NCBI GenBank assembly: GCA_002011125.2
Contig: MTMF02000009.1
Coordinates: 1,208,989-1,272,988, forward strand
From: Candidatus Hydrothermarchaeum profundi
GTDB lineage: Archaea > Hydrothermarchaeota > Hydrothermarchaeia > Hydrothermarchaeales > Hydrothermarchaeaceae
Direction of reading: 5' to 3'
Length of the DNA: 64,000 nt
Positions 10,563-42,569 of the stretch are shown piece after piece. Within the stretch, counting starts at the first letter, position 1, and each line of letters starts with the position of its first letter. The notes under the pieces were generated by a model that made no database searches, was not told where the DNA came from, and saw only the letters and a list, made by a program, of their open reading frames with translations. The translations under genes were made by a program, and so were the position numbers.

Positions 10563-10563
10563 A

Positions 10564-10627: not shown

Positions 10628-12031
10628 ATGAAGGTTTTGCTTATTGTGCCAAACGCAATAGGGAAATATTACAAACCAACTTCCCCACATGTTGGGATCG
10701 CCTATCTGGCAGCTTTTTTGATGAAAAATGAGATTGCTGTAGAAGTTATTGATCTGAGACTAGACTCAAAAATTGAAAAACTATTTGATAAAATTCAAAA
10801 TTTCTCTCCGGATCTTATAGGTATTACTTGTGCCAGTAGAGAATACGATATAGCCTATGGTATTATTAGCCAAATCAAAGATAATTATAGCACCCCTGTC
10901 GTAATCGGTGGGCCTCATCCCTCTGTAATCCAAGAAAAGATATTACTAGAATCCAAGGCGGATTATGCTGTTATAGGTGAGGGAGAATATACGTTATTGG
11001 ATTTGGTTACTGGGAAGGATCTTGAGAATATAAATGGGTTGGTTTGGCGGGATAATGGAAAAATCGTGAAAAATCCGAAGAGAGAACTAATAGAAGATTT
11101 AGATTCGCTCCCCTTCCCAGCATACGAAAAATTTGAGCTTGAAAAATATCTTGATAATAAGATTCCAATAGTTTCATCTAGAGGATGTCCCTTTAGATGT
11201 ACGTATTGTTCCATAAAACTAATAATGGGCAATAGATTTAGGGCAAGAAGTCCAGAGAATGTAGTGGATGAGATAGAGTATTGGCATAATAAGGGGTATA
11301 ATTATTTCACCTTTACTGACGACAACTTCACATGCGACATAAATAGAGCTATTAGAATATGTGAGTTAATCATTGAAAGAGGATTAAAAATTAAATGGGA
11401 TTTGAGAAATGGAATAAGAGTAAATCGTGTAAATAAGGAACTCTTAGAAAAAATGAAAAGAGCTGGCTGCTTTTATCTTGCCTATGGCATTGAATCCGGG
11501 CATCCCGAAGTATTAAAAAACATAAAAAAAGGTATCACTACGAAACAGGTTAGAAATGCCGTAAAATTAGCCAAGGATGTTGGAATAAAGGTGGGCGGTT
11601 TCTTTTTAATTGGTGCCCCAGGTGACACCTTTGAAAGATTTAGGTACACCCTTAATTTCGCAAAATCATTAAGACTTAATGAAGCTATGTTTTATAATAT
11701 AGTTCCTTACCCGGGTACAGAGTTACAAAAATGGGTTTCAAAAAATGCAAAATTCCTGTATCCCCCAGAGATTTACTTAAACGAAATATCCTATGATGCT
11801 CATGAACCTGTATTTGTAACTGATGATTTTTCCAAAGAAGAAAGAAGACTAGCTCATGAATTGGGTGAAGTGTATACTATGAAATTATTCTTTAAAAGCG
11901 AGTTTGGGACAGTTTTAGGACCGATCTTCTACGGTTTCTGGAAAAACAAGTTAATTAGAAAATATGGTTTAAATGCTGGTCTTAGATTCTGGGCATTTAC
12001 GAGAAAACTAAAGACGAGAATTAAGTCGTGA
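10628..12031 (+). CDS. B12-binding-type radical SAM protein
   Basis: A 467-residue member of the same family as 2514-3905 and 13413-14864. The N-terminal domain ('MKVLLIVPN', 'VIGGPHPSVIQEKILLESKADYAVIGEGE') is followed by the radical SAM core with C187, C191 and C194 in 'SRGCPFRCTYC'; 'GIESGHPEVLKNIKKGIT' and 'FFLIGAPGDTFERFRYTLNFAKSL' are typical core motifs. It differs enough from the other two copies to act on a different substrate. It lies alone between the IS remnant and a decayed GT2 end. A GT2 gene (12428-13294) follows on the opposite strand. Confidence 0.85.
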   Translation: MKVLLIVPNAIGKYYKPTSPHVGIAYLAAFLMKNEIAVEVIDLRLDSKIEKLFDKIQNFSPDLIGITCASREYDIAYGIISQIKDNYSTPVVIGGPHPSVIQEKILLESKADYAVIGEGEYTLLDLVTGKDLENINGLVWRDNGKIVKNPKRELIEDLDSLPFPAYEKFELEKYLDNKIPIVSSRGCPFRCTYCSIKLIMGNRFRARSPENVVDEIEYWHNKGYNYFTFTDDNFTCDINRAIRICELIIERGLKIKWDLRNGIRVNRVNKELLEKMKRAGCFYLAYGIESGHPEVLKNIKKGITTKQVRNAVKLAKDVGIKVGGFFLIGAPGDTFERFRYTLNFAKSLRLNEAMFYNIVPYPGTELQKWVSKNAKFLYPPEIYLNEISYDAHEPVFVTDDFSKEERRLAHELGEVYTMKLFFKSEFGTVLGPIFYGFWKNKLIRKYGLNAGLRFWAFTRKLKTRIKS

Positions 12032-21546: not shown

Positions 21547-22875
21547 TCAGAGTTGCTCGTAAATGAATCCTTCTTCAATTGCATCTTTATGGTTAAACAT
21601 ACCTTTTATGTCGATCAACACAGGCAATGGGTTCATCTCTTTCTTAATTTCCTTTAATGATAACATTCTAAATTCATCATGCGGGCTAAATACAATTATC
21701 CCATCAATTTCATTAAAGGATAAGTTATCTTGTATGGGAATCTCAAAATAATTTTCTGCCTCCTTTTTATGGACCTTAGGGTCATAACCAATAATTTCAA
21801 CACCATACTCCTTGAGTTCATCTATAATCTCCTTTGCTTTTGATGTTCTTATATCTGAAACGTTCTCCTTGAAGGCAAGACCCAGAATTAGAACTTTTGA
21901 TTTTCTCAGAATCTTCCCAGCTCTATTTAAAGCTTTTATGGTTAGCTCAGCTACATATTTAGGCATATAATTATTAATCTTTCTTCCAGCCAAAATTACC
22001 TGAGGCTCATAGCCTATTTCAATGGCTTTATAGACAAGATAATATGGGTCTACAGGTATGCAATGTCCACCAACTAGGCCTGGATAGTATTTCCCGAAAT
22101 TCCATTTAGTAAATGCGGCCTCTAGCACATCTTTTGTCTTAATTCCCATTTTTCTGAAAATTATTGAAAGTTCATTCATCAGTGCGATATTCAAATCTCT
22201 TTGAATATTTTCAATAACCTTTGCTGCCTCTGCAGTTTTTATATTTTTTGCTACAAATATATTGGAATCTAAGATCTTACCATAAAGTTTTAGTAAAATT
22301 TCCGTAGTTTCTTTTGTGTCTCCGCTCACCACCTTTGTTATAGTCTTCAAAGTGTGTTCTTTATCTCCTGGATTGATTCTCTCTGGAGAATACCCAACCC
22401 AAAATTCTGATTTATATTTCATGCCAGAAGTTCTCTCGATAATAGGTACCATAAACTCCTCAGTTACTCCAGGGTATACTGTTGACTCTAAAACCACTAT
22501 CACTTCTTTTTTAAGATTCCTTCCAATTGTTTTGGAAACACTTTTCAGCAGTCTTAAATCTGGCTGAAAATTCTTTGTAACTGGAGTTGGAACGCAGATT
22601 ATTATTATATCTGCTTCTCTTATTATTCCTTCATCATCAGTAAAAATAATATCGCTGTTATTTAACACTTCTTTTAACTTATTATTTCCTACTTCTGAAG
22701 TATAATCAATACCTCTAATTAAAAGATTAATTTTTTGCCTGTTAATATCAAAACCTCTAACTTTAAAGCCTTTAAAAGCAAATTCCACAGCAAGTTGCAA
22801 ACCTACATAACCCAGTCCAATTATGCAAATTGTAGCTTCACACTTTTCCACTTTTTTCTTAAGCTCGTTCATCAT
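21547..22875 (-). CDS. UDP/GDP-sugar 6-dehydrogenase (WbpA/TviB/WecC type)
   Basis: Oxidises a nucleotide sugar to its uronic acid with two NAD+. The N-terminal Rossmann domain 'TICIIGLGYVGLQLAVEFAFKGFKVRGFDIN', 'CVPTPVTKNFQPDLRLLKS', 'LESTVYPGVTEE', and the catalytic cysteine in 'GGHCIPVDPYYLVYKA' are all present, followed by the UDP-binding C-domain ('GLAFKENVSDIRTSKAKEIIDEL'). The alternative first codon at 22878 is TTG; ATGs at 22875 and 22872 follow GGTTGATG. It overlaps the upstream epimerase gene, matching the dehydrogenase/4-epimerase pairs that make GlcNAc/GalNAc uronic acids. Confidence 0.92.
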   Translation of the reverse strand: MMNELKKKVEKCEATICIIGLGYVGLQLAVEFAFKGFKVRGFDINRQKINLLIRGIDYTSEVGNNKLKEVLNNSDIIFTDDEGIIREADIIIICVPTPVTKNFQPDLRLLKSVSKTIGRNLKKEVIVVLESTVYPGVTEEFMVPIIERTSGMKYKSEFWVGYSPERINPGDKEHTLKTITKVVSGDTKETTEILLKLYGKILDSNIFVAKNIKTAEAAKVIENIQRDLNIALMNELSIIFRKMGIKTKDVLEAAFTKWNFGKYYPGLVGGHCIPVDPYYLVYKAIEIGYEPQVILAGRKINNYMPKYVAELTIKALNRAGKILRKSKVLILGLAFKENVSDIRTSKAKEIIDELKEYGVEIIGYDPKVHKKEAENYFEIPIQDNLSFNEIDGIIVFSPHDEFRMLSLKEIKKEMNPLPVLIDIKGMFNHKDAIEEGFIYEQL

Positions 22876-23797
22876 CAACCAGCCACTTTGTTGTTTTTCT
22901 CAAGCCGTCTTCTAACGGGTATTTAACCCTATACCCAAGCAGTTTTTTAGACTTGGAGATATCTGCAAGAGAGTGGCGGATATCCCCTTTTCTTGGTATT
23001 CCGTAAATTGGTTTAATATTCTTTCCTAGAATTTTATTCATTAATTCGACAAGTTCGTTCAGAGATACTGATCTACCGCAGGCGATATTGAAAATTTTCC
23101 CGCCTATATTTTTTTTCTTAAGTGCAAGAATATTCGCTTCAACCACATTTTTAATATACGTGAAATCTCTGCTTTGTTTACCATCACCATAAATTTCAGG
23201 AGCCTTGTTGTGTATCATTAATTTAAGGAACTTGGGTATTACTGCAGCATACGGTGAATTAGGGTCTTGTCTCGGACCAAAGACATTGAAATATCTCAAT
23301 ATAATAGTTTCGAGTCCATAGACTTCATAAAAAACTTTCGCATAGTACTCGCCCGTTAGCTTGGATACTGCATAAGGAGATAATGGCATAGGGTTCATCT
23401 CTTCATGCTGAGGTAATGGGTTTAATCCATAAATAGATGATGAGGACGCATAAGCAACTTTCTCTACATTTTCTTCTTTGGCTGCGATTAACACATTTAG
23501 TGTTCCTTTAACATTAATATCATTCGTAGTAACCGGGTCTTGCAAAGATCTAGGTACTGAAGGCAATGCAGCTTGATGTAAGATGTAGTCTACCCCTTTT
23601 ACGACTTCTTTCACAAAATTTAAATCCAATATGTCTCCTTCGTATATCTCTATTTCTGTCTCTATCTCTCGCAGATTTTCTCTTTTTCCTGTAAAGAAGT
23701 TATCAAGTATGGCAACTTCATAGCCTCTTCTAAGTAGCTCTATACACAAGTTGGAACCTATAAATCCAGCGCCTCCAGTAACGAGAACTTTGCTCAC
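22859..23797 (-). CDS. UDP-N-acetylglucosamine 4-epimerase-like (WbpP/TviC type)
   Basis: A short-chain dehydrogenase fold, 312 residues: 'KVLVTGGAGFIGSNLCIELL' NAD site, 'SSSSIYG', catalytic YxxxK in 'SPYAVSKLTGE', and 'FNVFGPRQDPNSPYAAVIPKF'. The 'QAALPSVPRSLQDPVTTNDINVKGTLNVL' stretch is characteristic of the WbpP/TviC group acting on N-acetylated UDP-hexoses or their uronic acids. It starts with GTG 23797, with AAGGGA about ten bases upstream. Overlap with the dehydrogenase gene (about 17 bp) indicates an operon supplying an N-acetyl-hexosaminuronic acid. Confidence 0.88.
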   Translation of the reverse strand: MSKVLVTGGAGFIGSNLCIELLRRGYEVAILDNFFTGKRENLREIETEIEIYEGDILDLNFVKEVVKGVDYILHQAALPSVPRSLQDPVTTNDINVKGTLNVLIAAKEENVEKVAYASSSSIYGLNPLPQHEEMNPMPLSPYAVSKLTGEYYAKVFYEVYGLETIILRYFNVFGPRQDPNSPYAAVIPKFLKLMIHNKAPEIYGDGKQSRDFTYIKNVVEANILALKKKNIGGKIFNIACGRSVSLNELVELMNKILGKNIKPIYGIPRKGDIRHSLADISKSKKLLGYRVKYPLEDGLRKTTKWLVDDERA

Positions 23798-24072: not shown

Positions 24073-25368
24073 TCACTCTCTGAATAGCTCTTCCTTAATT
24101 TTTTTGAATAAAAATATTGTACCTATAAGATATGAAAATATTAGTGAAATAACCGCACCATAGATGCCAAAATGCTGTACGAGGTAAAAAGAAAGTATTA
24201 TCATTATAGTTGATATAATTAATATAGTCATGGTAAATATTTTAGCGCCATTCTCTCCTATGGAAACTGCAAACCATGTTAAGAGTGAATAGACAAAAAA
24301 TTGCAATGAACCATAAACAAATAATATTAGCAAAAGAAACTTTAAAGGATATCCCGGACCGTATAGTTTCAAAATCACGAATGATATCAATAGAAGAGCA
24401 GGGAAAAGTGCTGGAGATTTTAATAAGAACATTTTCACCTTTAAAAAAAACTCTTTTTTGTCATGGTGTCGTGATGCTTCTGGGAAAAAAACCATAGATA
24501 TCGTCGTCACGAAAAACCCTACTAAGCTGAAAGTTGAGAAATAATAAGCTTGATAAATCCCGACATCCTCTAGAGACATGAAAAAATTGATGAGTATCTT
24601 GTTGATGTTCTCCGTCACCGATACAGAAAATATACCCAAAACAATGAAAGACGAGAATCTCAGCAAGCTCTTGACATAATCCCTACTAAAAGAAATAATA
24701 AGGTTTTTCCTGAACTCTGGTATTATAATACTGGCAGACAAGACATAGCCGATAATGAAGGCATATACGGGGGGTCTAGCCCCCTGAAAGTGGTCTATGA
24801 AAATGACTACGAAGATGGCAGTTGAGATACCCCATAAGACGTTTATAGCGCTTAATTTTCTCATTTCATTGAGCCCCTGAGATATTTTCTGACTTAAAAC
24901 CCAAAATGTGTAGGCAATAGCCATTACGATCGCCGCATGAAAATAGCGGGGGGAGATTGAGATTAAATTTGCAAAAAAGCCCGCAGTAGAATAGAAAATA
25001 ATAGAAAAAAAGGAAGTAAATAATAAAATGGAAAAGATCCCTGAAGAAAAAATCTTCTTTCTCTCGATATCATTTTCCTCTGGCGCCAAGTATCTAACCA
25101 TAGCTGTCCCAATACCAAATAACATAGGGACGTACAGTAAGTGAGAGACTGATATAATAAGGGCAAATTTCCCATACTCGTCTGCCCCTAGAGACCGGCC
25201 AATATAGACTTGAATGAAAACCGAAAAAAACTTAGATAAAGATAGGGCGGTGAAAACGAAGGTAAGATCCTTCAAAAAATTTTTCGCTCGAGTTCCTGGA
25301 GTACCTCCAAATATTTTCGAGTAAACCCAAAAAATGAATCCTGCAATTACTTCTTTGATCTTGTCCAT
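24073..25368 (-). CDS. Wzx-type polysaccharide flippase (MOP superfamily)
   Basis: 431 residues with about 12-14 hydrophobic helices, starting 'TRAKNFLKDLTFVFTALSLSKFFSVFIQVYIGRSLGADEYGKFALIIS', the standard opening of the polysaccharide biosynthesis protein / RfbX family. It likely moves lipid-linked oligosaccharides across the membrane. The longer frame opening at TTG 25386 is unlikely; ATG 25368 sits about 25 bp after a TATA box (25388-25399) and would be leaderless. Divergent from the GT4 gene at 25422. Confidence 0.88.
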   Translation of the reverse strand: MDKIKEVIAGFIFWVYSKIFGGTPGTRAKNFLKDLTFVFTALSLSKFFSVFIQVYIGRSLGADEYGKFALIISVSHLLYVPMLFGIGTAMVRYLAPEENDIERKKIFSSGIFSILLFTSFFSIIFYSTAGFFANLISISPRYFHAAIVMAIAYTFWVLSQKISQGLNEMRKLSAINVLWGISTAIFVVIFIDHFQGARPPVYAFIIGYVLSASIIIPEFRKNLIISFSRDYVKSLLRFSSFIVLGIFSVSVTENINKILINFFMSLEDVGIYQAYYFSTFSLVGFFVTTISMVFFPEASRHHDKKEFFLKVKMFLLKSPALFPALLLISFVILKLYGPGYPLKFLLLILFVYGSLQFFVYSLLTWFAVSIGENGAKIFTMTILIISTIMIILSFYLVQHFGIYGAVISLIFSYLIGTIFLFKKIKEELFRE

Positions 25369-25387
25369 TGCGTGTATTCTTTTCAAT

Positions 25388-31137: not shown

Positions 31138-32166
31138 TTAAATAAATCTTTTGATAAAACTCCAATAGCAATTTAGAATAGGGTTAAGAATTTTATCTAA
31201 TAGTGGATTTTTAATGCCGCTAAAATCTATAGTACCAACATAAAGTTTCACTATTTCTGAATCAGGTACTTTTCTTTTTGATTGAATTTCTGATCTTTTT
31301 TTTAATGTCTTTCTAATGTATTTTAGATTCCACAGATATCCTTTAACTTTCATCCAAAACCAGCCGGTAATTAGAGCATAACTAAGGATGGATAACTCTA
31401 AAATGAGTAAAGCTGGGGAAATAAGTAATAGAGTCTTCAAGTTATAATTTTTTAGGAGTGTCGTAATCCTATTTCTTTCTAAATAGTAGAGCTTGATTTT
31501 ATTATTAAGATTAAAGGCATATTTGTGGTAGACAATAGATCTAGGAGCAAAATAAATCTTATATCCTGCTAATCTAGTTCTCCAGCTTAAGTCACTATCT
31601 TCACAATAAATAAAATAATCTTCATCAAATAATCCTACTTTTTCCAAAACTTCTCTTTTAAATAGGGAATACCCGCCACAGGCAAAGCTAATTTCTCTTT
31701 TGCCATATTGCCCTTTATCTTCATCGTTGAACCCAATTGACCAAGCATGCCCTAAGTAATTAAGGACTCCACCAGCGGAATCTAAAATATCCCGATTATC
31801 AAATAAAAGGGCTTTGGATGTGCAAGCTCCAATTTCGGGATTAGACTCAGCCACTTTTATAAGCTCCCCAAGCCAGTTTCTATCGACTTCTGTATCTGGG
31901 TTCAGAAAGGCGATATAATCAACTTTATTTTCTAATGCAACTTTAGCAGCTAGATTATTTCCCTTGGCAAATCCGTAATTTTTCTTATTTTCTAAGATTT
32001 TTACTGTGGGAAATTTTTTTTTAACAAAATTTACACTTTCATCGGTAGATCCATTATCACTCAAAATTATCTCAAAATCCTTAAATGTTTGGTTCAGTAG
32101 ACTCGGCAAACAAGTTTCTAAGTGATGCTTCTCATTTGTATTTAAAACAATCACACAAGCTTTCAT
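31138..32166 (-). CDS. GT2 family glycosyltransferase (rhamnosyltransferase-like)
   Basis: 342 residues: 'ACVIVLNTNEKHHLETCLPSLLNQTFKDFEIILSDNGSTDESV', 'KNYGFAKGNNLAAKVA', DTE replacing DxD in 'FLNPDTEVDRNWLGEL', and 'IYCEDSDLSWRTRLAGYKI'. This is the WbbL/rhamnosyltransferase-like GT2 subgroup. A hydrophobic segment near 250-275 ('LLLISPALLILELSILSYALI') suggests membrane contact. Nearest gene on its strand is the deacetylase, 48 bp upstream, so it may end that operon. Confidence 0.87.
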   Translation of the reverse strand: MKACVIVLNTNEKHHLETCLPSLLNQTFKDFEIILSDNGSTDESVNFVKKKFPTVKILENKKNYGFAKGNNLAAKVALENKVDYIAFLNPDTEVDRNWLGELIKVAESNPEIGACTSKALLFDNRDILDSAGGVLNYLGHAWSIGFNDEDKGQYGKREISFACGGYSLFKREVLEKVGLFDEDYFIYCEDSDLSWRTRLAGYKIYFAPRSIVYHKYAFNLNNKIKLYYLERNRITTLLKNYNLKTLLLISPALLILELSILSYALITGWFWMKVKGYLWNLKYIRKTLKKRSEIQSKRKVPDSEIVKLYVGTIDFSGIKNPLLDKILNPILNCYWSFIKRFI

Positions 32167-32214: not shown

Positions 32215-33063
32215 CTATAAAAGTTCCTTTAATGGCACGAAGTTAAATTTTTTAAAAAGCTCTTCTAGCTTATTTATAGTTGTATGGATCCCATAATAAC
32301 TTATGAAACTGTTCCACTTGGAAATTCCAAGCCTTGGTGTTGATGGGTAAATATCCCTAGGGTGTACATATATGATTGCAGGCCGTCCTTCTTTATTCAC
32401 TTTTTCCACACTATATTTTAGGAACCACTTAGGTAGTACTCGCAGATAGAATCCGCCAGAAAAAGGAATTTTGAACCCGAATTTCTTTAATATCGTAATG
32501 GGAAACTCTACTAAATTCCTATCCGCCTCTAATGTAATATCTTCTCTAGAAGGACTATAGGGGTATAATGGAGCATTAGAGATACCATAAATAGTGGTCT
32601 TCATAGGGAAAACACTTGAATCATACCTATATCCAAATTCCTCTAAGATATCCAATGCCCATTTAGTGCTATTATTCAAAGAGAAATTTGATGCCCGATA
32701 GCCTAGTGGCTTTCTACCGGTTATATCCTGTAGTAAATTGGTGCTTTTTTCGATTTCCTCTCTGAACTCTTCTTGGGTCATTTTATGAAGTGGTCTGTGG
32801 GAATAACCATGGGATGCGATTTCATGTTCCTTAGATATTTCTTTAATGAGTTCTAGATGTTTCTCAGCTAACTTGCCCAGTACAAAAAAAGTTGCTTTAA
32901 CATGATATTTTTTAAGCAATTCCAAAAGAGGCTTTACGGACTCTAGTACTTGATCTTCAAACTCTGGCGAAGACTCTGCCCACCGAATATTATTTGGTAG
33001 TGCTTTATAGAGGTACTCATTACACCACCAGAACTCTAGGTCAACAGTTAATGAATTTTTCAT
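32215..33063 (-). CDS. Polysaccharide deacetylase (NodB homology, DUF3473-like)
   Basis: 282 residues from ATG 33063, which follows the FemAB stop by 5 bp with AGGAT upstream; an extension to 33093 would overlap FemAB. Catalytic features: 'LTVDLEFWW' (the metal-binding Asp region), 'KATFFVLGKLAEKHLELIKEISKEHEIASHGYSHRPLH' with HxxxH, 'GYRASNFS', and the C-terminal 'FPITILKKFGFKIPFSGGFYLRVLP' and 'IYVHPRDI' typical of the XrtA/PEP-CTERM-associated deacetylase group. It likely removes N-acetyl groups from a glycan or lipid-linked sugar. Encoded with two FemAB-type genes, as in bacterial exopolysaccharide loci. Confidence 0.87.
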   Translation of the reverse strand: MKNSLTVDLEFWWCNEYLYKALPNNIRWAESSPEFEDQVLESVKPLLELLKKYHVKATFFVLGKLAEKHLELIKEISKEHEIASHGYSHRPLHKMTQEEFREEIEKSTNLLQDITGRKPLGYRASNFSLNNSTKWALDILEEFGYRYDSSVFPMKTTIYGISNAPLYPYSPSREDITLEADRNLVEFPITILKKFGFKIPFSGGFYLRVLPKWFLKYSVEKVNKEGRPAIIYVHPRDIYPSTPRLGISKWNSFISYYGIHTTINKLEELFKKFNFVPLKELL

Positions 33064-33068
33064 TTTAA

Positions 33069-34052
33069 TTATCCTATTTGCTTTATTAACCAAGGCCCGA
33101 GTTTTTTTGCCAAGAAGTTCGGCATTAGTTTACTCCAAAGCTTAGAAATACCTCTATACCTTATTTCTTGTCTCTCCTTTAATTCCCTTTTGTAAAATTT
33201 ATAATAGTAAGTCATAGGAACTTCTTCGCCACCCCAGCCCTTTTTAAAGGAATAGACGCCTGAATCTTTCCTAGTCCTCCCGAAATCGAAAACTTTTAAT
33301 CCTGAATCGCATCCTTCTTTGATCATAGACCATAAAAGTAGATTATTAGGTCTTAGATTTTGGTATTTAAGAGAAGAGGTACTAGAATAATAGTAAATTA
33401 TGTCTTCGAAAATAAAAAAAAGCATGCCTGCGATGCGGGTACCCTTATATTCTGCAAGCCTTATTTTACACGTAGGGAGCTTTGAGAGTCTTTCAAAAAA
33501 ATAATATGATTGGGGAGGGCTGCCCAGCTTCTTCATGGTTTCTAAATATAGGTTATAAAAATCCTTTAAATCCATAGAATTACTAGCTTTTTTTACTTCT
33601 ACTCCACTCTTCTTGGCCTTCCTAACCGCATTTCTAGTTTTTTTGTTTAGATTTCTCCAGATCTCTTTCTCTCCCTTACTTAACTCCAGTTTAAAGGTAC
33701 AGTAATCTATTCTACTTTTGAAGCCATTTTCAATGAGAATATTTGTTAATTCACCTCGAGGGCATCTAACCTCAATAAAGTCTAAATTTAGCTCTCTACA
33801 AATATTCCAGAGAACTCCGATCAATTTCTCAACTTCCGTCACTTCCCCACATGGTCCCCCATAGTCAGAGAAGGGAAGAGATATCAATCTATTCCCAAAA
33901 AGCCTACTTTTTACTAAGGCGAGAGGGAATATGGCCCTATCTTCCTTCAGCTTAAAAATCCTATATCCATGAATATCTTCTAGCACCTTAAGCCAAGCTT
34001 CCGATAAGAAGAAGCTACCTTCATATTCACTTATGATGTTATTCCACTCCAT
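33069..34052 (-). CDS. FemAB/GNAT acyltransferase (exopolysaccharide-associated type)
   Basis: 327 residues with the FemAB-like double-GNAT layout: N-terminal 'GSFFLSEAWLKVLEDIHGYRIFKL', then 'EIWRNLNKKTRNAVRKAKKSGVEVKKA', the family signature, and 'RIAGMLFFIFEDIIYYYSSTSSLKYQNLRPNNLLLWSMIKEG' with 'FDFGRTRKDSGVYSFKKGWGGEEV' at the acyl-binding end. Bacterial FemAB proteins add amino acids to peptidoglycan from aminoacyl-tRNA; archaea lack that polymer, so the acceptor is probably a surface glycan or lipid. Overlaps the upstream FemAB paralogue by one base (TGATG). Confidence 0.85.
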   Translation of the reverse strand: MEWNNIISEYEGSFFLSEAWLKVLEDIHGYRIFKLKEDRAIFPLALVKSRLFGNRLISLPFSDYGGPCGEVTEVEKLIGVLWNICRELNLDFIEVRCPRGELTNILIENGFKSRIDYCTFKLELSKGEKEIWRNLNKKTRNAVRKAKKSGVEVKKASNSMDLKDFYNLYLETMKKLGSPPQSYYFFERLSKLPTCKIRLAEYKGTRIAGMLFFIFEDIIYYYSSTSSLKYQNLRPNNLLLWSMIKEGCDSGLKVFDFGRTRKDSGVYSFKKGWGGEEVPMTYYYKFYKRELKERQEIRYRGISKLWSKLMPNFLAKKLGPWLIKQIG

Positions 34053-35092
34053 CAGAATCCCGATTTATACCTAAGATAATTTATTCTCTTGTACAAGGGA
34101 AGGAAATAGGGTAGCAGTATTTGTTTGAAAATCTTGTATCTCAAGGGGAAGATAATTCTGTTACTGTATTGCATCTCTTGGACAAACTTGCCTCCAAAAC
34201 CTTTTTTAAAAGTGTATAAACCGTATTTTGGATGTTTTTTATCGGGAATGCAAGGGCTTCCATAAAGATCAAGATATTTGTATCCATTTTCTGATCCCCA
34301 TTTCATCATCTCCCATACTATAAGCGTGTTAGCGTTTAAGCCCCAATATTTTTCTAGCGAGGCATTATTGAAATAGCTTATAGTATCCTTATAAAACAAG
34401 AAAACCGTCTCAGCTATAGCCTTTTCATCGTATTTAGCTATCAAAAATCGTGCAAGATTGTTTGGAGCCATCTCTCTCCAAATTGATTTAAAGTACTTTT
34501 CGGACAGGGGAATCATATTCTTAATATTGACCGCTCTACTTATGTAAACATTATAAGCTTCCTTTAATTTTTCATATGAATCGACTTCTTCCACAGTAAC
34601 TCCAAATTTGATTGCTTTTCTTATGGCATTCCTTGTTTTTTTGTTTAGTTTTTTCCACATTATTTCCTCTGAGGTAAGTTCAACTTTAAAGGAGCAGGCG
34701 ACCGCCAATTCATCAACTTCAAATCCTAGTCTAGAGACCTCCTTTTTAGTTAAAACAAAAGGTGTCCTGAGTTGTATGCCGAAGCAAGATTTATCTTTAG
34801 CAATTCTGCTGATTTTATCTAGAATAAGACTTAGGGCTTTATAATCTATTTTATTTAAAACAGGACCTGAAACTACAAACATTTGCTTTATAAACTTCGT
34901 CCTAGGTATGTAAAAAAAAGTTCCGCCAATTATTGTATCTTTTTCTTTCACCAATAGTAAAGAAACATCAAATCCGCTATTTCTCAAGGATGTAGCAAAT
35001 TCTTTGGTTTGGAATATATTTCCATAAATTGCCTTTTGATTGAAAGAATTCCATTCTTCCCATTCTGAAGGACCAGCGATGTTGGCATCCAT
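34052..35092 (-). CDS. FemAB/GNAT acyltransferase (lipid II aminoacyltransferase-like)
   Basis: 346 residues from ATG 35092 (a TTG two codons earlier is the alternative). 'QTKEFATSLRNSGFDVSLLLVKEKDTIIGGTFF', 'IMWKKLNKKTRNAIRKAIKFGVTVEEV', 'IAETVFLFYKDTISYFNNASLEKYWGLNANTLIVWEMMKWG' and 'LDLYGSPCIPDKKHPKYGLYTFKKGFGGKFV' are close to FemX/FemAB signatures. A paralogue of the next gene downstream, with the same 'NKKTRNA.RKA' motif, but different enough to attach a different residue or use another acceptor. Forms an operon with the second FemAB and the deacetylase. Confidence 0.85.
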   Translation of the reverse strand: MDANIAGPSEWEEWNSFNQKAIYGNIFQTKEFATSLRNSGFDVSLLLVKEKDTIIGGTFFYIPRTKFIKQMFVVSGPVLNKIDYKALSLILDKISRIAKDKSCFGIQLRTPFVLTKKEVSRLGFEVDELAVACSFKVELTSEEIMWKKLNKKTRNAIRKAIKFGVTVEEVDSYEKLKEAYNVYISRAVNIKNMIPLSEKYFKSIWREMAPNNLARFLIAKYDEKAIAETVFLFYKDTISYFNNASLEKYWGLNANTLIVWEMMKWGSENGYKYLDLYGSPCIPDKKHPKYGLYTFKKGFGGKFVQEMQYSNRIIFPLRYKIFKQILLPYFLPLYKRINYLRYKSGF

Positions 35093-35101
35093 TTCCAAAT
35101 C

Positions 35102-35464
35102 CTAGAATTTGTTAATACTTATGACGCCTATGAATATTAATATAGCTCCCATAATTCTCCCAATGCTAAGTGACTCTCCGAGCAATATATAAGAACCTGC
35201 GATTAAGGCGATATAATTAAATCCTGCGATCGTCAGCCCGGTTACTATTGCACTCCCATATTTCAATGCTATGATTGAGGTAATATATCCCAAAACGCTC
35301 ATTGAAAAAGATATAACGACATCTCTAGTTGTAGCGAGGTCCTTTATAATTTTTAATGGGCCTCCTGTAAATGATACTTCAACTACGCCTGACCGCATAA
35401 ACACGATTGCAAGGCCAAAGAGTATTCCTGAAACCATTGAGAGTAAAATTCCTGCTTCTCTCAT
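35102..35464 (-). CDS. EamA/DMT-type small membrane protein
   Basis: 120 residues, four hydrophobic helices: 'GILLSMVSGILFGLAIVFM', 'VVISFSMSVLGYITSIIALKYG', 'VTGLTIAGFNYIALIAGSYILLGE', 'IGRIMGAILIFIGVISI'. The pattern and the 'ILLGESLSIGRIMGAILIFIGV' end match the 4-TM half of the drug/metabolite transporter (EmrE/EamA) group; similar proteins (ArnE/F-like) occur in lipid-sugar export. It precedes the FemAB pair by 9 bp and is likely co-transcribed. It may export an activated precursor, but this is inference. Confidence 0.7.
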   Translation of the reverse strand: MREAGILLSMVSGILFGLAIVFMRSGVVEVSFTGGPLKIIKDLATTRDVVISFSMSVLGYITSIIALKYGSAIVTGLTIAGFNYIALIAGSYILLGESLSIGRIMGAILIFIGVISINKF

Positions 35465-35473: not shown

Positions 35474-35485
35474 AATAAATATATG
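35474..35485 (+). promoter_or_regulatory. TATA box for the 35507 GT4 gene
   Basis: AATAAATATATG is centred 27 bp before ATG 35507, predicting a leaderless mRNA and supporting that start over the frame opening at 35483. Confidence 0.45.
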
Positions 35486-35506
35486 ATGGCATATAAACCT
35501 ATTGTG

Positions 35507-36640
35507 ATGAAACTTTTGGTCCTAGGTTCCAAGGAGTTTCCCTTAGGAACATCCGATGACCCCCTTCCTTCAGGGGGAATTGAGGTTTACATAGAAAATT
35601 TCTTAAAAGCGCTTCAGGAGCGAGGAATAGAAATTTTAGTTATAACTAGAAAGTTTCCAGGAGTCCCTAAAAGAGAAGTTACGGGATCAATAGAGATACT
35701 TAGAGTTCCATGGATAAAGGGCTTTTATTTTAGGAATATAAGCTTCAACTTCGCAGCATTCCTCTCAGCGCTTCGTAAAGATTACGATATAATTCACGCT
35801 AATGGTCCGATTGGAAGTTTTTTTGGCATGCTCTTATCAAAGGTGAAAGGAGTTCCTTTAATAGCAGTACCTCATGGGCTTACCCTTGAGCAACCTCAGT
35901 ATAACCGTGTAATTAGAAAGACGTTCGCCATGCTGGAAAAGTTTGTGTATTCTAGGGTAGATCATGTAGTATTTTTGTCGGAGCAAGAAAAAGACCAATT
36001 TATAAAGAAACTTGGGTTCCTACCTACATCTTGGAGCATTATATCCCCTGGAATAGACTTCCTTAAGATAGAATCTGAAAAATCAGATAGTGCAAAAAAA
36101 GATTTCGGGATTAAAAAAGAAGTCGTTATTACCTTCACAGGAAGACTTATTGGAGTAAAGGGAGTCGAGTATCTGGTAAAAGCTGCTCGATATTTAGAAG
36201 GAGACTTTAAAATTTTAATTGTAGGTGATGGGCCTGAGAGGCAAAAACTCGAGAGACTAGTCTCGGATTCAGGGCTTACCAAAAGAATAATCTTTACAGG
36301 ACATCGCAAGGATGTACCAAATATTTTAGCTATTTCCGATATATTTGTGCTTCCCAGCATCTCAGAGGGCCTCCCTACCTCTTTACTCGAAGCCATGGCA
36401 ACGGGTTTGCCTTGCGTCGTGACGGATATAGGACTCCCAGTAGTTAATGGAGAGACCGCACTCGTAGTACCTTCCTGCAATGAAAAGGAACTCGCTAATG
36501 CGATTAACAAATTATTGAAAGATGTAGAACTGAGAAAAATATTAGGCAAAAAGGCCAAAAGAGAGATAATGACCAAGTACTCATGGGATAAAGCAGTAGA
36601 ATCCTATAAAAAGATTTTTCACTGCTTGTTAGAGAGATGA
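35507..36640 (+). CDS. GT4 family glycosyltransferase
   Basis: 377 residues beginning 'MKLLVLGSKEFPLGTSDDPLPSGGIEVYIENFLKAL'. Donor domain: 'ITFTGRLIGVKGVEYLVKAARYL', 'ILIVGDGPERQKLERLV', 'SDIFVLPSISEGLPTSLLEAMATGLPCVVTDIGLPVV' with E-x7-E. The preceding in-frame ATGs at 35483/35486 lie at or inside the TATA box and are disfavoured. Single gene, divergent from the EamA/FemAB/deacetylase operon and convergent with the aminotransferase gene (45 bp gap). Confidence 0.9.
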   Translation: MKLLVLGSKEFPLGTSDDPLPSGGIEVYIENFLKALQERGIEILVITRKFPGVPKREVTGSIEILRVPWIKGFYFRNISFNFAAFLSALRKDYDIIHANGPIGSFFGMLLSKVKGVPLIAVPHGLTLEQPQYNRVIRKTFAMLEKFVYSRVDHVVFLSEQEKDQFIKKLGFLPTSWSIISPGIDFLKIESEKSDSAKKDFGIKKEVVITFTGRLIGVKGVEYLVKAARYLEGDFKILIVGDGPERQKLERLVSDSGLTKRIIFTGHRKDVPNILAISDIFVLPSISEGLPTSLLEAMATGLPCVVTDIGLPVVNGETALVVPSCNEKELANAINKLLKDVELRKILGKKAKREIMTKYSWDKAVESYKKIFHCLLER

Positions 36641-36685: not shown

Positions 36686-37765
36686 TTAAGTTAAACTTTC
36701 TTTGAAGGATGAAATAATGAATCTAATATTCTCCTCTGAAACTGCTGGATGCACAGGTAAACTTAAAACCTCGCGAGAAGCTTTTTCAGCCTCCAATAGT
36801 TCGTCAGCATCATAAAGTCTTTCATATAGCTTTTGTCTATGAATTGGGATAGGATAATAGATGCCTGTTTCAACCCCTTTTTTTATTAACTTTTTAGAGA
36901 GTTCATCTCTGTTGGAAACACGTATAGTATACTGGTGGAAGACATGCCTAGCACGCGGTGATACGTGGGGGGGTACAAGCCCATCGATTTTTCCTAGTCC
37001 TTCTGTCAGTAAGTTAGCATTTTTAATTCTTTTCTCATTCATTCCATCAAGCTTCTTTAACTGCTCTATACCAATAGCAGCCGCGATATCGGTCATTCTG
37101 TAGTTATACCCTAAAGTTTCATGGTGATATCTTATCTTGGAGCCGTGTCCTCTAATCATCCTTGCCTTTTCAGCTATTTCTCTACTATCCGTGGTTATCA
37201 TTCCACCCTCGCCGGTAGTCATATTTTTAGTGGGATAAAAGCTGAAGGCGGCACAGTCTCCAAAGGAACCCACTTTCTTTCTGCCGTATTCAGCTCCATG
37301 CGCTTGGCAAGCGTCCTCAATTAGTAAGAGCCCATGATCTTGGCATATCTCCCTGAGCGCGTCCATCGCACATGGCTGACCGTATAGATGAACAGCGAGG
37401 ATGGCTTTGGTTTTACGGCTAATTTTTTCTTTTACTTCTTCTGGGTTAATATTGAATGTCTTAGGGTCTATGTCGGCAAATACTGGCTTGGCACCACAGT
37501 AAAGAATAGAATTAGCGGAAGCTATAAATGAAAAAGGAGTCGTAATCACTTCATCTTCATTCTTTATGCCCGTTGCCAATAGGGCGGTATGGAGGGCGGT
37601 GGTACCACTGCTAGTTGCGATAGCATATTTTGTACCGATATACCGAGCAAAGCTTGTCTCAAATTCTTCTACTTTTAAGCCTTGAGTAAGCATACCTGAG
37701 GATAGAACTTCTAGAACAGCTCTTTTCTCTTCTTCACCAATCATTGGTTTAGCAATAGGTATCAT
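36686..37765 (-). CDS. DegT/DnrJ/EryC1/StrS sugar aminotransferase
   Basis: 359-residue PLP enzyme converting a keto-nucleotide sugar to an amino sugar. 'GMLTQGLKVEEFETSFARYIGTKYAIATSSGTTALHTALLATGI', 'TPFSFIASANSILYCGAKPVFADID', 'LLIEDACQAHGAEYG', and the PLP lysine K180 in 'SFYPTKNMTTGEGG' are complete. The oxidoreductase at 39544-40533 could provide the 3-keto substrate, as in WlbA/WlbC pairs making 3-amino sugars. It lies 73 bp after the HAD gene on the same strand. Confidence 0.92.
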   Translation of the reverse strand: MIPIAKPMIGEEEKRAVLEVLSSGMLTQGLKVEEFETSFARYIGTKYAIATSSGTTALHTALLATGIKNEDEVITTPFSFIASANSILYCGAKPVFADIDPKTFNINPEEVKEKISRKTKAILAVHLYGQPCAMDALREICQDHGLLLIEDACQAHGAEYGRKKVGSFGDCAAFSFYPTKNMTTGEGGMITTDSREIAEKARMIRGHGSKIRYHHETLGYNYRMTDIAAAIGIEQLKKLDGMNEKRIKNANLLTEGLGKIDGLVPPHVSPRARHVFHQYTIRVSNRDELSKKLIKKGVETGIYYPIPIHRQKLYERLYDADELLEAEKASREVLSLPVHPAVSEENIRFIISSFKESLT

Positions 37766-37838: not shown

Positions 37839-38504
37839 TTATGCACATGACTTCACCAATTCAATAAATTCTTTTAGATTCTTTATAATATAATCCGCGC
37901 CGCTCCTCCTAAGGTCTTCTTCGTTTGCTGTGCCTGTTAGAATCCCGGCGGTTATAACACCTGCTCTTTTCCCACTTATGATATCATAAGGATGATCGCC
38001 AAGTAAGATACATTCCTCTGGGTTTATCTTAAGTTTTCTCAGGGCCAAGTTTATGGGCTCTGGGTGGGGTTTTGTCTTCTCAGCATCCTCTCTTGCGATA
38101 ACGATATCGAAACTTAAATTATATTTTCTTACAGCATCGTTTACTACACTTCTACTTGTTCTTGAAACCACTCCGAGGGTATACCCTGACCTCCGTAGAT
38201 GATCTAAAGCTTCTCTTGCAAAAGGCAGGATTTCAGAACCTTCTAAGGCGAGCTTCTCCTCTTCTTCTAAAATCTGTATAGCTATTCTGTAAGTAGTTTC
38301 TGCTTCTCTCCTACCAAATCTTTCTGAGATTTTCTGTGTACTCTCCTCTATAGATTTGAGAACTGGTTTGAACTCTTTTTTAATGCCATATTTTTTATAA
38401 AACTCTCTAAGCCTTTCTCTGGTTTTTTCTGCATTAAAATTTAATTTTACAAGAGTTCCGTCCAAGTCAAAAAGAATCAGCTTAAAGCTTTTTTGCTTCT
38501 CCAT
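37839..38504 (-). CDS. HAD superfamily hydrolase (phosphoglycolate phosphatase-like)
   Basis: 221 residues with HAD motifs: I 'LILFDLDGTLVK' (residues 9-20, two aspartates), II 'LGVVSRTSRS', III 'KTKPHPEPI', IV 'ILLGDHPYDIISGKRAG'. A helical cap lies between I and II. Likely dephosphorylates a sugar phosphate. It overlaps the upstream ATP-grasp gene by 28 bp, so the two probably act in one pathway. Confidence 0.85.
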   Translation of the reverse strand: MEKQKSFKLILFDLDGTLVKLNFNAEKTRERLREFYKKYGIKKEFKPVLKSIEESTQKISERFGRREAETTYRIAIQILEEEEKLALEGSEILPFAREALDHLRRSGYTLGVVSRTSRSVVNDAVRKYNLSFDIVIAREDAEKTKPHPEPINLALRKLKINPEECILLGDHPYDIISGKRAGVITAGILTGTANEEDLRRSGADYIIKNLKEFIELVKSCA

Positions 38505-39547
38505 TTCTCTCCCTTTACAAGTTTATGTCCTCCGTCTATCAGCCTAATCCAGTAAAGCCCTTCGGGAAGAGGATCGTATTTAGGTATACTAGGTAATTCT
38601 TCGTCATAGGCCAGTTTGATATAGATATAAGGCATGTTGACCCCGGCCTCTGAAAAGAAATTGCTTGTGGTAAAAAAGCGCCCAGCATTTATTTCAGTAA
38701 TACATGGAATTCCTTTAGAGTTCTCTTTCATATCAATACAGAAAACTCCATTAGCTTTGTTATCGATCGCCAATACAGCGTTGGTTGCGATTTCATTCAC
38801 ATCGCTTCTGTTTACCGTTCTAGCAACAGCTGGGCTTGAAGTTTGGCCACTAGGTGTGAGATGAGGAAAGATATATTCCAGTCTCTCCCTCGCCTGAGAT
38901 ACGATGAGTTCGCCATCTTTCCAAACGCTCTGAAAGGCGAATTCCCTCCCAGGCAGGTATTCAGCTAGCATGAAGTCGTTATAATCTAGACTATGCATTT
39001 TTTTCCAATAATCTATCCACATAACTGCATGAGAAACTTCTTTAACGGGCAGGCTAGCCTTCGCTCCAGCACCTTTTTTTGCCCTTAGCCATGCTTTCCT
39101 AGGATATACCTCAAGGAGCGTTTTTAAGGCCTTTGGGATTTCAGCCTCCCCGCTTAAATTAAAGGTATTAGGGACAGGGATATCGTTTTCTTTGAGAATC
39201 TCTGTCAAATGCATCTTGTCTTGGCAAATTCGCACTGTTTTTTTATCAGGAAGAAATGTTTTTGCTTTAATTCTTTCTCTATTTTCAGATATAGCTGCTA
39301 CTTCTACATCTGGTTGGGGATGTACAAATTCTATTTCCTCTAACTTGATAACCTCATTTAATGCTCTAATGTAGCTTGGGTCGTCAAACTTTGGAAGGAG
39401 GTATCTGGAATCTACATCTGATAACTCCAAGTGCCATTTGTTCACATCTCCCCCAGCAATATAGAATTTTTCTGAGGGGAGTCTAAGTGATTTTATAAAA
39501 TTAATCCCGGCAGGTCCTCCGGCTCCAGTTACAAATATTCTTTTCAT
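38477..39547 (-). CDS. ATP-grasp enzyme (carbamoyl-phosphate-synthase-like)
   Basis: 356 residues. 'MKRIFVTGAGGPAGINFIKSLRL' opens a Rossmann-like preATP-grasp domain; 'LTEILKENDIPVPNTFNL', 'KAWLRAKKGAGAKASLPV' (ATP-binding lysine), 'LAEYLPGREFAFQSVW', and 'GVFCIDMKENSKGIPCITEINAGRFFTTS' (metal-binding E..N) are ATP-grasp core motifs. Enzymes of this layout ligate an amino acid or carboxylate to an acceptor with ATP. Start overlaps the stop of the Gfo/Idh gene by 4 bp. In a sugar locus it may build an amide-linked substituent on a sugar. Confidence 0.82.
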   Translation of the reverse strand: MKRIFVTGAGGPAGINFIKSLRLPSEKFYIAGGDVNKWHLELSDVDSRYLLPKFDDPSYIRALNEVIKLEEIEFVHPQPDVEVAAISENRERIKAKTFLPDKKTVRICQDKMHLTEILKENDIPVPNTFNLSGEAEIPKALKTLLEVYPRKAWLRAKKGAGAKASLPVKEVSHAVMWIDYWKKMHSLDYNDFMLAEYLPGREFAFQSVWKDGELIVSQARERLEYIFPHLTPSGQTSSPAVARTVNRSDVNEIATNAVLAIDNKANGVFCIDMKENSKGIPCITEINAGRFFTTSNFFSEAGVNMPYIYIKLAYDEELPSIPKYDPLPEGLYWIRLIDGGHKLVKGEKWRSKKALS

Positions 39548-40533
39548 TTTCCAATTTTTATAGGTTTCATATTATAATGGGACTGGATAGCTGCTAACGC
39601 TACTTCTAAGGCAATTAAGCCGTCCTCGCCTGTGACCAGGGGTTCTTTGCCTTTCTCAATACAGTCGATAAAGTGTTTGAGTTCTATTTTAAGAGGTTCT
39701 TCTTTCTTTACACTTACAGTTATTTTTTTAGGTGTTCCGAATTTCCATATGAAATCTCCAAATGAGTCGTAACTCTTCTCATAAAAGCTCTCATAAATTC
39801 TTAGCTCCTGAGTTAAATAATTCAGCTCCGCATATCCCTTAGTACCTGTTACTGAAAGCTCTCTTATCTTAACCGGAGTGATCCAGTTTACTTGTACAAA
39901 ACAAGGTATCCCCTCATAATCGAGAGTTATTAGAGCATGATCCTCTCTTTGGACAAGAGCCTTGCCTGCTTTGGCATATACTTCATCTGGCCGCTTTTCT
40001 AGTATATAGTTGAATATATCTATATCGTGAACCGCAAGATCTAATATCACGTTAGCATCCTTTATTTGTGGAGGAAACACTCCAACCCTCCTCGCCATTA
40101 TGGAGGTTATCTCACCGATCTTTCTTTTTTTCATCAGCTTTTTAAGTCTAGTCACTGCTGGGTTAAATCTTTCAATATGCCCCACCATCACGGTTACTCC
40201 TTCCTTGCGGCTTTTTTCGATTATCTCCTTTGCACTTTTAATACCGTCTGCGATAGGCTTCTCTACGAGGATATGTTTACCGGATTCAATACACTTTAGT
40301 GAGATTTCTCTATGCAAGGAAGTGGGAGCGCAGATAGAAACTGCCTCTATATCCTCTATTTTCAACATTTCGGAGTAGTCTTGATAGAAATTGCATCCAA
40401 GCTTTTGCGAAAGGTCTTTTCCTTCTTTCTTAATATCGGAGATAGCTACTAAATGTGCTCCTTTTATTTCAGTATAAACCCTAGCATGGTTTCTCCCCAT
40501 ATTGCCTATCCCTATAACACCAACATTTACCAT
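39544..40533 (-). CDS. Gfo/Idh/MocA family NAD-dependent sugar oxidoreductase
   Basis: 329 residues: 'VNVGVIGIGNMGRNHARVYTEIKGAHLVAISDI' dinucleotide site, 'APTSLHREISLKCIESGKHILVEKPIADGIKSAKEII' with the catalytic EKP lysine, 'GHIERFNPAVTRLKKL', and 'DLAVHDIDIFNYIL'. This resembles WlbA-type oxidases that form 3-keto UDP-sugars for a DegT aminotransferase. Single base between it and the upstream epimerase gene. Confidence 0.88.
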   Translation of the reverse strand: MVNVGVIGIGNMGRNHARVYTEIKGAHLVAISDIKKEGKDLSQKLGCNFYQDYSEMLKIEDIEAVSICAPTSLHREISLKCIESGKHILVEKPIADGIKSAKEIIEKSRKEGVTVMVGHIERFNPAVTRLKKLMKKRKIGEITSIMARRVGVFPPQIKDANVILDLAVHDIDIFNYILEKRPDEVYAKAGKALVQREDHALITLDYEGIPCFVQVNWITPVKIRELSVTGTKGYAELNYLTQELRIYESFYEKSYDSFGDFIWKFGTPKKITVSVKKEEPLKIELKHFIDCIEKGKEPLVTGEDGLIALEVALAAIQSHYNMKPIKIGK

Positions 40534-41552: not shown

Positions 41553-42569
41553 TCAAAGCATGAAAAGATATACGAGTAGCATTATAATGATTTCTACTCC
41601 AAAAAGGAAATAAGTGACTTCCTTCTCATAACATTTACCTTTAATCTTTTTTACACTCCACAAAGCAAGGTGTTCCATACCATAAATATGAGGATAGGGA
41701 AGCTCTAAGGTTCCATCTTTATTTGGCTTTCCAAACGCTTCTGTTTTGAAAGTTTGCTCCTTAGAGAGGAAAGGGCTTACTGCGGGAATAATAAAGTCTA
41801 TAAAGTAGGGTATAAAGAGAATAACTGCTATCTTCTCAAGGTTTCCGAGGATAGCAACGCATGCGATCAAAGCTCCTACGGAATAGCTCAAGGAGTCGCC
41901 AGGGAATATCTTGGCGGGATACCAGTTGTACTTTAAAAATGCTAGGAGAGAGAAAGCCATAGCTAAAGCAAGCATTGCTACCCAGCCGCTATCTGTCTGC
42001 CAAGCAGCGAATCCAAGAAACCCAAGGATAAGCACACCCATTCCCCCTTCCAACCCATTATATCCAGCAAGAATATTGAAGCCATTAGCAGCTCCAGCAA
42101 TCCCAAAGGGGATTACTATCAGTGGATACAATACCCCGAAGTCTACATTACCTACTATCGGTAGAACCATGCTGGATTCACCTGCGTTTACCACCATCAT
42201 AGGAAAAGCAGCAACTAAAGTAAGCAGGGGCTTCTGCCATTGCTTAAGACCTTTTTTCCATCCTAATATGTCATCCAGCATTCCTACAATCATAATAATC
42301 ATGCATGAAGAAATAGCAGCGAGAATATACAGATTATACGTAGTAGACTTAAAGTAAAAGGTATTCAAGGCGATATAAACGAAGACACCCGCAAGAAAAC
42401 CGGCATTTACTGGAAGACCTCCCATCTCTGCTACTACTGGGTTGTCATACTTATTCATATCCTTACCAGTAATCCCATTCTGGTGGGCAATATTTATCCA
42501 CTTAGGAGTGAGAAGATATGTTACTACAAAGCTTATTCCAAGACTGACGAATAATAAGACATCTACCAT
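41553..42569 (-). CDS. UDP-GlcNAc:polyprenyl-phosphate GlcNAc-1-P transferase (AglH/MraY-like)
   Basis: 338 residues, about 9-10 membrane helices. Family motifs: 'DNPVVAEMGGLPVNAG', 'MIVGMLDDILGWKKGLKQWQKPLLTLVAAFP' with the catalytic DD, 'NGFNILAGYNGLEGGMG', 'FPGDSLSYSVGALIACVAILGNLEK', and 'KTEAFGKPNKDGTLELPYPHIYGMEH' near the end. It transfers HexNAc-1-phosphate to dolichyl phosphate, the first membrane step of glycan assembly. First gene of the minus-strand sugar operon (42569 to 36686). Confidence 0.9.
   Translation of the reverse strand: MVDVLLFVSLGISFVVTYLLTPKWINIAHQNGITGKDMNKYDNPVVAEMGGLPVNAGFLAGVFVYIALNTFYFKSTTYNLYILAAISSCMIIMIVGMLDDILGWKKGLKQWQKPLLTLVAAFPMMVVNAGESSMVLPIVGNVDFGVLYPLIVIPFGIAGAANGFNILAGYNGLEGGMGVLILGFLGFAAWQTDSGWVAMLALAMAFSLLAFLKYNWYPAKIFPGDSLSYSVGALIACVAILGNLEKIAVILFIPYFIDFIIPAVSPFLSKEQTFKTEAFGKPNKDGTLELPYPHIYGMEHLALWSVKKIKGKCYEKEVTYFLFGVEIIIMLLVYLFML

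Follow-up and report, generated by a model that had tools for sequence, protein, structure and literature searches.

The window analyzed here is a 64,000-nucleotide (nt) stretch (C9:1208989-1272988) of the 2.19-Mb, 19-contig genome of Candidatus Hydrothermarchaeum profundi, and within it one tight unit on the minus strand, running from 35464 to 32215, encodes an EamA-like open reading frame (ORF), 2 FemAB acyltransferases (FemAB1 and FemAB2), and a NodB-type polysaccharide deacetylase. We propose with moderate confidence that the product of this unit is an amino sugar bearing an aminoacyl group, destined for a surface glycan, and that it arises through deacetylation in the cytoplasm followed by tRNA-dependent aminoacylation. 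The interpretation is based on gene order, family relationships, retained catalytic residues, the recurrence of the FemAB-deacetylase pair in archaea and bacteria, and the absence of a Mur ligase. As judged from its fold and motifs, the deacetylase would act in the cytoplasm on an acetamido sugar linked to a nucleotide or a lipid, removing its N-acetyl group, and FemAB2 would then move an aminoacyl group, most likely from an aminoacyl-tRNA, onto the bared amine. FemAB1 may add a second residue or acylate another amine, for example one that the surrounding cluster provides through its Gfo/Idh and DegT enzymes, and we would guess that the EamA-like and Wzx-type membrane proteins carry the product across the membrane. 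An earlier sequence-only reading of this DNA had called such a deacetylate-then-aminoacylate route plausible, and the adjacency statistics, catalytic residues, structural neighbors, and VimE/VimA precedent described below support it, with an amino acid donor that we infer.

The genes of the unit are closely packed. The EamA-like ORF ends 3 nt before FemAB1, FemAB1 shares 1 nt with FemAB2 (TGATG), and the deacetylase has 2 possible starts, a TTG that overlaps FemAB2 by 25 nt or the ATG of codon 11, which lies 5 nt past FemAB2. All 4 ORFs that the sequence-only reading had placed between 32215 and 35464 are confirmed, as is the tight arrangement of the FemAB paralogs with a NodB-type deacetylase. 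The deacetylase (32215..33093, minus strand) is of the NodB/CE4 type with a DUF3473 C-terminus, scoring 88.4 bits against PF01522 and 113.5 bits against DUF3473 (PF11959). FemAB2 (33069..34052, minus strand), an XrtA-like FemAB/double-GNAT acyltransferase, and FemAB1 (34052..35098, minus strand), a divergent one with FemX/6snr matches, reach 67.4 and 97.3 bits against PF02388, whose gathering cut-off is 24. The 2 are divergent paralogs with 34% identity over 178 amino acids (aa) and separate positions in the tree, which rules out a recent tandem duplication. For the fourth gene (35102..35464, minus strand; 120 aa), the description as a membrane protein stands, with 4 hydrophobic segments by hydropathy, but its EamA affiliation is less secure: the PF00892 match (22.7 bits) is under the Pfam cut-off of 28.2, a solved-structure search gave no match, and a survey of the other archaeal FemABs sampled turned up no homolog in their vicinity. 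On this last count the protein was rejected as a conserved FemAB partner, and a flippase-like role for it is a guess.

Their scores place FemAB2 and the deacetylase close to the XrtA families but short of them, with TIGR03019 (the XrtA/PEP-CTERM FemAB) and TIGR03006, respectively, as the nearest. The deacetylase scores 243.1 bits against a curated TIGR03006 cut-off of 276.2, and FemAB2 and FemAB1 score 206.6 and 50.3 bits against a TIGR03019 cut-off of 260.35, which places all 3 outside formal membership. The resemblance to bacterial XrtA loci proposed earlier is borne out by these near-matches and by XrtA plasmid loci of Nitratidesulfovibrio, Vibrio, and Sphingomonas (the last 2 close to xrtA), in which, as in the window, an adjacent TIGR03006-type deacetylase and TIGR03019-type FemAB sit among glycosyltransferases. 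Unlike these exopolysaccharide loci, the window locus has no exosortase, scores below both cut-offs, and contains a second, divergent FemAB and the EamA-like ORF.

A second parallel is the Wbp/Vim linking-sugar pathway of Porphyromonas and Tannerella, where the same deacetylate-then-aminoacylate logic has been proposed for VimE and VimA and for which the window holds candidates for the WbpA, WbpB, and WbpE roles. According to Veith et al. 2020, type IX cargo carries a seryl or glycyl linking sugar, exchange of vimA shows that the amino acid is set by VimA, VimE is proposed to remove the acetyl group first, VimA matches TIGR03019, and the FemABs of exosortase bacteria are speculated to make a similar amino-acid-modified sugar; the word "archaea" has no count in that paper (PMC7468200). 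The order of steps that we propose would be the one put forward for VimE and then VimA in Porphyromonas. The window differs in its archaeal host and in a deacetylase that is not VimE-like. Overall, the unit probably acts in the manner of the XrtA pair and of VimE/VimA, while its proteins stay outside the corresponding curated families.

The window FemABs share PF02388, the double-GNAT fold, and an equivalent of Lys305 with FemABX peptidyltransferases such as FemX and FemA, which in bacteria act on peptidoglycan. As the sequence-only reading had supposed, this archaeon has no such route: the genome contains no Mur ligase (PF08245), whereas 13 of 14 control genomes were positive. A role in peptidoglycan or pseudomurein was dropped for this reason. 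The Myxococcus Exo spore-coat locus, with 2 acyltransferases and a deacetylase, was also considered as a parallel but plays no part in the argument, since neither "deacetylase" nor "glycine" appears in the paper examined for it.

Catalytic residues and the acyl donor

Both enzyme types retain the residues expected for their chemistry. In the deacetylase, D18, E20, H95, H99, R133, and H244 are invariant in an 8-row alignment, with the acidic residues of CE4/NodB motif 1 and the HxxxH metal ligands present. The deacetylase, FemAB1, and FemAB2 all have zero predicted transmembrane segments, which fits a cytoplasmic reaction. A loss of acyl-acceptor residues, which the earlier reading had named as a refutation, is not seen: residue 305 of FemX (1ne9) aligns with K270 of FemAB2 and K298 of FemAB1, and of 53 FemABs compared, 49 have Lys here, with Phe (43) or Tyr (10) as the residue just before this position. 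Lys305 is described as the only reactive residue near the substrate in FemX, and its counterpart as essential in DhpH-C (PMC12945691).

One line of evidence on the donor is the structure model of FemAB2, which has a predicted local distance difference test score (pLDDT) of 79.8. Its best solved match, both by sequence and by Foldseek, is 9wqy; the top of the Foldseek list consists of Sba18/Sbb17 (9wqy, 9wqw, 9wqx), FemX, and FemA, at modest TM-scores of 0.48 to 0.55 for the first 3. VIA-align returned 11 top rows at Z 19.4 to 20.8, all of them aminoacyl-tRNA-dependent enzymes, followed by a tandem GNAT (Z 16.5) and MprF (15.8). Sba18 and Sbb17 are streptothricin-type aminoacyl-tRNA-dependent peptide synthases that serve antibiotic tailoring in bacteria, and although they are the nearest solved relatives of FemAB2, the identity is only about 20%. 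They aminoacylate the streptothricin core, and the acceptor amine of streptothrisamine is located on its gulosamine sugar. Both 9wqy and 9wqx were solved with streptothrisamine bound. For FemAB1 the model is weak (pLDDT 60.9), so only its top matches were used, a list headed by FemX, Sbb17/Sba18, and FemA. These nearest solved relatives point only indirectly to an aminoacyl-tRNA donor for FemAB2, which we would consider the most likely one.

The same fold is, however, shared by enzymes that use coenzyme A (CoA). Double GNATs of this kind, a glucosamine N-acetyltransferase among them, align to the FemAB2 model with a Z of about 15, so the fold does not settle the donor, and both FemABs also match PF13480 (Acetyltransf_6). 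An acyl swap, in which the deacetylase bares the amine and the FemAB/GNAT enzymes add a formyl, hydroxybutyryl, or other acyl group from acyl-CoA and no amino acid at all, is consistent with these matches. We consider it unlikely, given that the best solved relatives by both sequence and structure depend on aminoacyl-tRNA and that the FemX Lys305 equivalent is kept in nearly all of the aligned FemABs.

Recurrence of the FemAB-deacetylase pair

A search of 394 archaeal genomes with TIGR03019 at E 1e-7 or better located FemABs in 26 of them, at 35 places in all, with a match over the curated cut-off in none of the 394. Screening 31 loci with custom profiles gave 39 FemAB ORFs in 35 units, with G062 as a 36th unit; the sample was drawn with the XrtA-associated model and is uncorrected for related genomes. 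A NodB-like gene stands directly beside FemAB in 15 of the 36 units, always on the same strand, with gaps of at most 22 nt and in both gene orders, and lies 2 genes off in 5 further units. Deacetylases occupy 15 of 65 positions at distance 1 from FemAB versus 11 of 295 at distances 3 to 9 (p=2.5e-6); around GT4 glycosyltransferase genes as a control, the figures are 3 of 68 at distance 1 versus 24 of 280 (p=0.93). When the profile was restricted to deacetylases that are not located near FemABs, the corresponding figures were 6/65 versus 3/295 (p=0.0015). Curated models at E 1e-5 or better support 8 of the 15 adjacent deacetylases (those of the window, L045, L049, L051, L057, L067, L068, and L069), and the deacetylase family of L069, L075, and others matches the NodB profile at 97% probability.

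The pairing extends beyond the window archaeon and is no peculiarity of one organism, as the distribution of FemABs and the presence of the pair on haloarchaeal plasmids show. In the plasmids of Haladaptatus, Halocatena, and Halobaculum the deacetylase is followed by FemAB, in the Nanohaloarchaea assembly GLR72 the pair occurs on 2 contigs, and in Natronococcus a GT2 gene separates FemAB from another deacetylase. A Methanosarcina vacuolata plasmid carries the nearest deacetylase (53% in the alignment used for the tree), with no annotated FemAB nearby. On the Halocatena salina plasmid (NZ_CP096020.1), the FemAB that follows the deacetylase is itself followed after 4 nt by a 218-aa ORF (L079:9983-10639) with similarity to the C-terminal region of the archaeal alanyl-tRNA synthetase family (TIGR03683 744-897, 5e-8, under cut-off), which may hint at tRNA handling. 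On the Halobaculum marinum plasmid, a tryptophanyl-tRNA synthetase (L082:11436-12593; 385 aa, over its NCBIfam cut-off) lies beside FemAB, deacetylase, and GT4 genes.

The window's own genome encodes 3 FemABs by TIGR03019, and a PF02388 search returns the same 3 genes. The third (L045:9703-10719) overlaps by 4 nt with a deacetylase-like gene (PF01522 29.0 bits, cut-off 23.1); within this gene pair (L045:9703-11657) the FemAB groups with a FemAB from a Halorussus plasmid (98/97).

Phylogenies qualify the XrtA relationship. Placement relative to the XrtA-associated clade, which the sequence-only reading had asked about, divides the paralogs: FemAB2 pairs with the GLR72 protein (100/98), and both belong to a fork shared with the bacterial XrtA FemABs (81/91, drawn open), but FemAB1 and the third FemAB are placed outside it. 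The window deacetylase groups with that of Methanosarcina (99/96) within an archaeal set (85/89) that is sister to, and not nested among, the bacterial XrtA deacetylases plus one archaeal row (99/98). The trees do not support the idea that the pair was recently acquired from XrtA bacteria, with the deacetylase in this archaeal sister group and FemAB2 beside a Nanohaloarchaeal protein. In both trees the deep forks are weak and many branches long.

Several observations weigh against an aminoacyl-sugar unit built from a conserved FemAB-deacetylase pair. FemAB2 and the deacetylase both remain under the curated XrtA cut-offs, FemAB1 is without a close relative, and the fold shared with CoA-dependent enzymes has been noted above. 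The window deacetylase gives no match to the VimE family (NF053580) at E 0.01 and deviates at 2 motif positions, with DLEF where relatives have DLED or DLEH and HPRD for HPWE. In the survey, 21 of the 36 FemAB units, G062 among them, have no directly adjacent deacetylase, 7 of the 15 adjacent deacetylases rest on custom profiles, and the family found in L047, L048, and L066 matches the NodB profile weakly (hhalign probability 78.9).

This last family has an RHDxD and an HE-G-HYEV motif (L047:11724-12485, L048:11673-12416, L066:10456-11322), and its members adjoin FemAB near an exosortase; the 3 members have no Pfam match at E 0.01 and only the weak NodB profile match. In L048, a 428-aa protein with only sub-threshold zinc-ribbon matches (10390-11676) is encoded between a VimE-like deacetylase and the RHDxD protein.

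The surrounding glycan cluster

The 4-gene unit is embedded in a glycan cluster of glycosyltransferases, sugar enzymes, an ATP-grasp protein, and a flippase. The next gene downstream, 48 nt past the deacetylase, is a family 2 glycosyltransferase (31138..32166, minus strand; PF00535), and on the opposite side of the unit is a divergent GT4 glycosyltransferase (35483..36640, plus strand; PF00534, PF13439), whose best NCBIfam match is the PEP-CTERM/XrtA family TIGR03088 (153.9 bits, cut-off 409; not a member). An ATP-grasp protein with a PylC-like N-terminus (38477..39547, minus strand; PF15632, PF02655, PF21360) is a possible ligase, and its Pfam domains also occur near FemAB on the Halocatena plasmid. 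A PF00953-family sugar-phosphate transferase (41553..42569, minus strand) likely initiates the glycan, and a Wzx-type polysaccharide flippase (24073..25386, minus strand) matches PF01943 at 66.2 bits. A TviB-like nucleotide-sugar 6-dehydrogenase (21547..22878, minus strand; TIGR03026 404 bits, cut-off 189.8; TviB model 385.9, cut-off 592) is a candidate for the WbpA role of a Wbp-type route.

Two further genes of the cluster could supply a different amine. A Gfo/Idh oxidoreductase (39544..40533, minus strand; PF01408) is related to archaeal UDP-GlcNAc 3-dehydrogenases, below the cut-off (NF040723 366.9 bits, cut-off 450), and a DegT/PseC-like nucleotide-sugar aminotransferase (36686..37765, minus strand; PF01041 461 bits; TIGR03588 344, cut-off 423.5) may be an alternative source of sugar amine. 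Together they raise the possibility that the FemABs act on the 3-amino group of a GlcNAc3N-type sugar while the deacetylase serves another step, a scheme that recalls the Rhodovastum gene order of Gfo/Idh, DegT, sugar transferase, and FemAB. DegT genes directly adjoin FemAB at 5 of 65 sampled positions, and again in G062, but this adjacency is not enriched (versus 10 of 295; p=0.11) where that of the deacetylase is, and the packed window unit includes the deacetylase and not DegT. We rejected DegT as a preferred FemAB neighbor on these figures and regard the 3-amino scheme as rather improbable. Least convincing of all is a gate for export by analogy with ArnD/ArnEF, in which the deacetylase would act on a polyprenyl-linked sugar for flipping by the EamA-like protein and the FemABs would be incidental decorators: the position of that 4-segment protein just upstream in the unit fits, but its sub-threshold family match, its absence near other sampled FemABs, and a sub-threshold ArnD-family score of the window deacetylase (19.9 versus 382) make this very unlikely.

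A type I phosphodiesterase family protein (PF01663; window 28989-30566) recurs in 7 of 30 FemAB-bearing loci, 2 to 7 genes from FemAB. The guanine plus cytosine content is mostly 31% to 37% over the glycan genes (window 1-36000) and about 37% to 43% over 36000-60000, perhaps marking a variable glycan island. PADLOC, run on 3 other window proteins, returned nothing.

Exosortases and a possible linking sugar

The sequence-only reading had noted the lack of an exosortase, which is true of the locus but not of the genome. The search for an archaeosortase elsewhere that it recommended turned up one exosortase-family gene (L020) on the same contig, 204 kb away, with 56 bits against PF09721 and 44.5 against TIGR04178 (cut-off 23). 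This is the sole PF09721 match in the genome; among the matches listed, none of its 5 families is the XrtA model. It aligns with 4 other archaeal exosortases with an intact Cys/Arg/His triad, the catalytic residues of exosortases. The exosortase belongs to a second glycan cluster (L043/L044; G000:C9:1432000-1465000) with a DUF2334/NodB-type deacetylase, an STT3 oligosaccharyltransferase, and a flippase, and its surroundings also include a GT4-like ORF and a sub-threshold YdjM-like protein. Searches of the genome for sorting signals gave no PGF-CTERM match and 3 sub-threshold PEF-CTERM matches with none over the cut-off; other sorting tails were not searched for.

Across archaea, FemABs and exosortases are associated. 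PF09721 exosortases occur in 166 of the 394 genomes, including 18 of the 26 with FemAB versus 148 of the other 368 (p=0.0065). In 5 of the 13 FemAB genomes with listed exosortase places (G302, G110, G055, G217, and G014), the 2 genes are at most 12 kb apart, where a uniform-placement model expects 0.28 (P about 1e-5). Part of this linkage could reflect a common tendency of both genes to be located in glycan clusters. Archaeosortase C scores are over the cut-off of 100 in L066 (346), L048 (153), and L076 (125), the exosortase of L047 passes only the general TIGR04178 model, and the exosortase sequence of G217 itself was outside this scoring. Four of the 5 close loci (L047, L066, L069, and L076) each have a protein whose N-terminal part includes a hydrophobic segment and whose C-terminus is a sorting-type tail made up of PEF or PES, a hydrophobic stretch, and a basic end; only that of L066 passes TIGR03024 PEF-CTERM (38.9, cut-off 23). 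VimE-like deacetylases are found in G369, G217, and G014 at sub-cut-off scores of 80 to 99 versus 440. In G014, which belongs to the same order as the window's genome, a single 13.6-kb contig carries archaeosortase C, a VimE-like deacetylase (80.5/440), FemAB, a UDP-GlcNAc 3-dehydrogenase over its cut-off (474.6/450), and a nucleotide-sugar dehydrogenase.

To our knowledge, the acceptor to which exosortases and most archaeosortases attach proteins is open. Archaetidylethanolamine has been proposed as the amine nucleophile of archaeosortase A (PMC7157517). These loci suggest, as a tentative possibility, an archaeal Wbp/Vim-like linker in which FemAB and a NodB-like deacetylase make an aminoacyl sugar whose free alpha-amine serves archaeosortase C-type enzymes as the nucleophile for coupling PEF-CTERM-tailed proteins to a lipid-linked glycan, with the window module representing the same chemistry positionally decoupled from its exosortase. 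A more specific form concerns the window's own genome, where the amine of the aminoacyl sugar would act as the nucleophile by which an exosortase/archaeosortase couples surface proteins to a lipid-linked glycan, much as the seryl or glycyl linking sugar does in type IX secretion; this form builds on the aminoacyl-sugar explanation and does not exclude it. The close linkage and co-occurrence, the over-cut-off archaeosortase C and PEF-CTERM matches, the tail-bearing secreted proteins, the VimE-like deacetylases, and the archaeosortase A precedent all speak for this form. The distance of the window genome's exosortase, its lack of PGF- or PEF-CTERM proteins over the cut-off, the 8 of 26 FemAB genomes without an exosortase match, and the possible effect of common glycan-cluster location speak against it, and we think it improbable. 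A sortase linker is thus attractive for other archaea and unproven for the window's genome.

A 2010 review knew no enzyme yet for amino acid addition to archaeal glycans, such as the threonine on the Methanococcus N-glycan (PMC2952790), and the open-licence literature searched gave no published account of archaeal FemAB-deacetylase modules. The FemABs described here are candidates for that activity. Archaeal loci with FemAB, deacetylase, archaeosortase C, and a PEF-CTERM-type protein extend the guess of Veith et al. 2020 to another domain of life and are places where the linking-sugar guess can be tested by mass spectrometry. If it is true, a single chemical logic, that of a FemAB-made, amine-bearing acceptor, would apply to bacterial exosortases, type IX secretion, and archaeosortase C.

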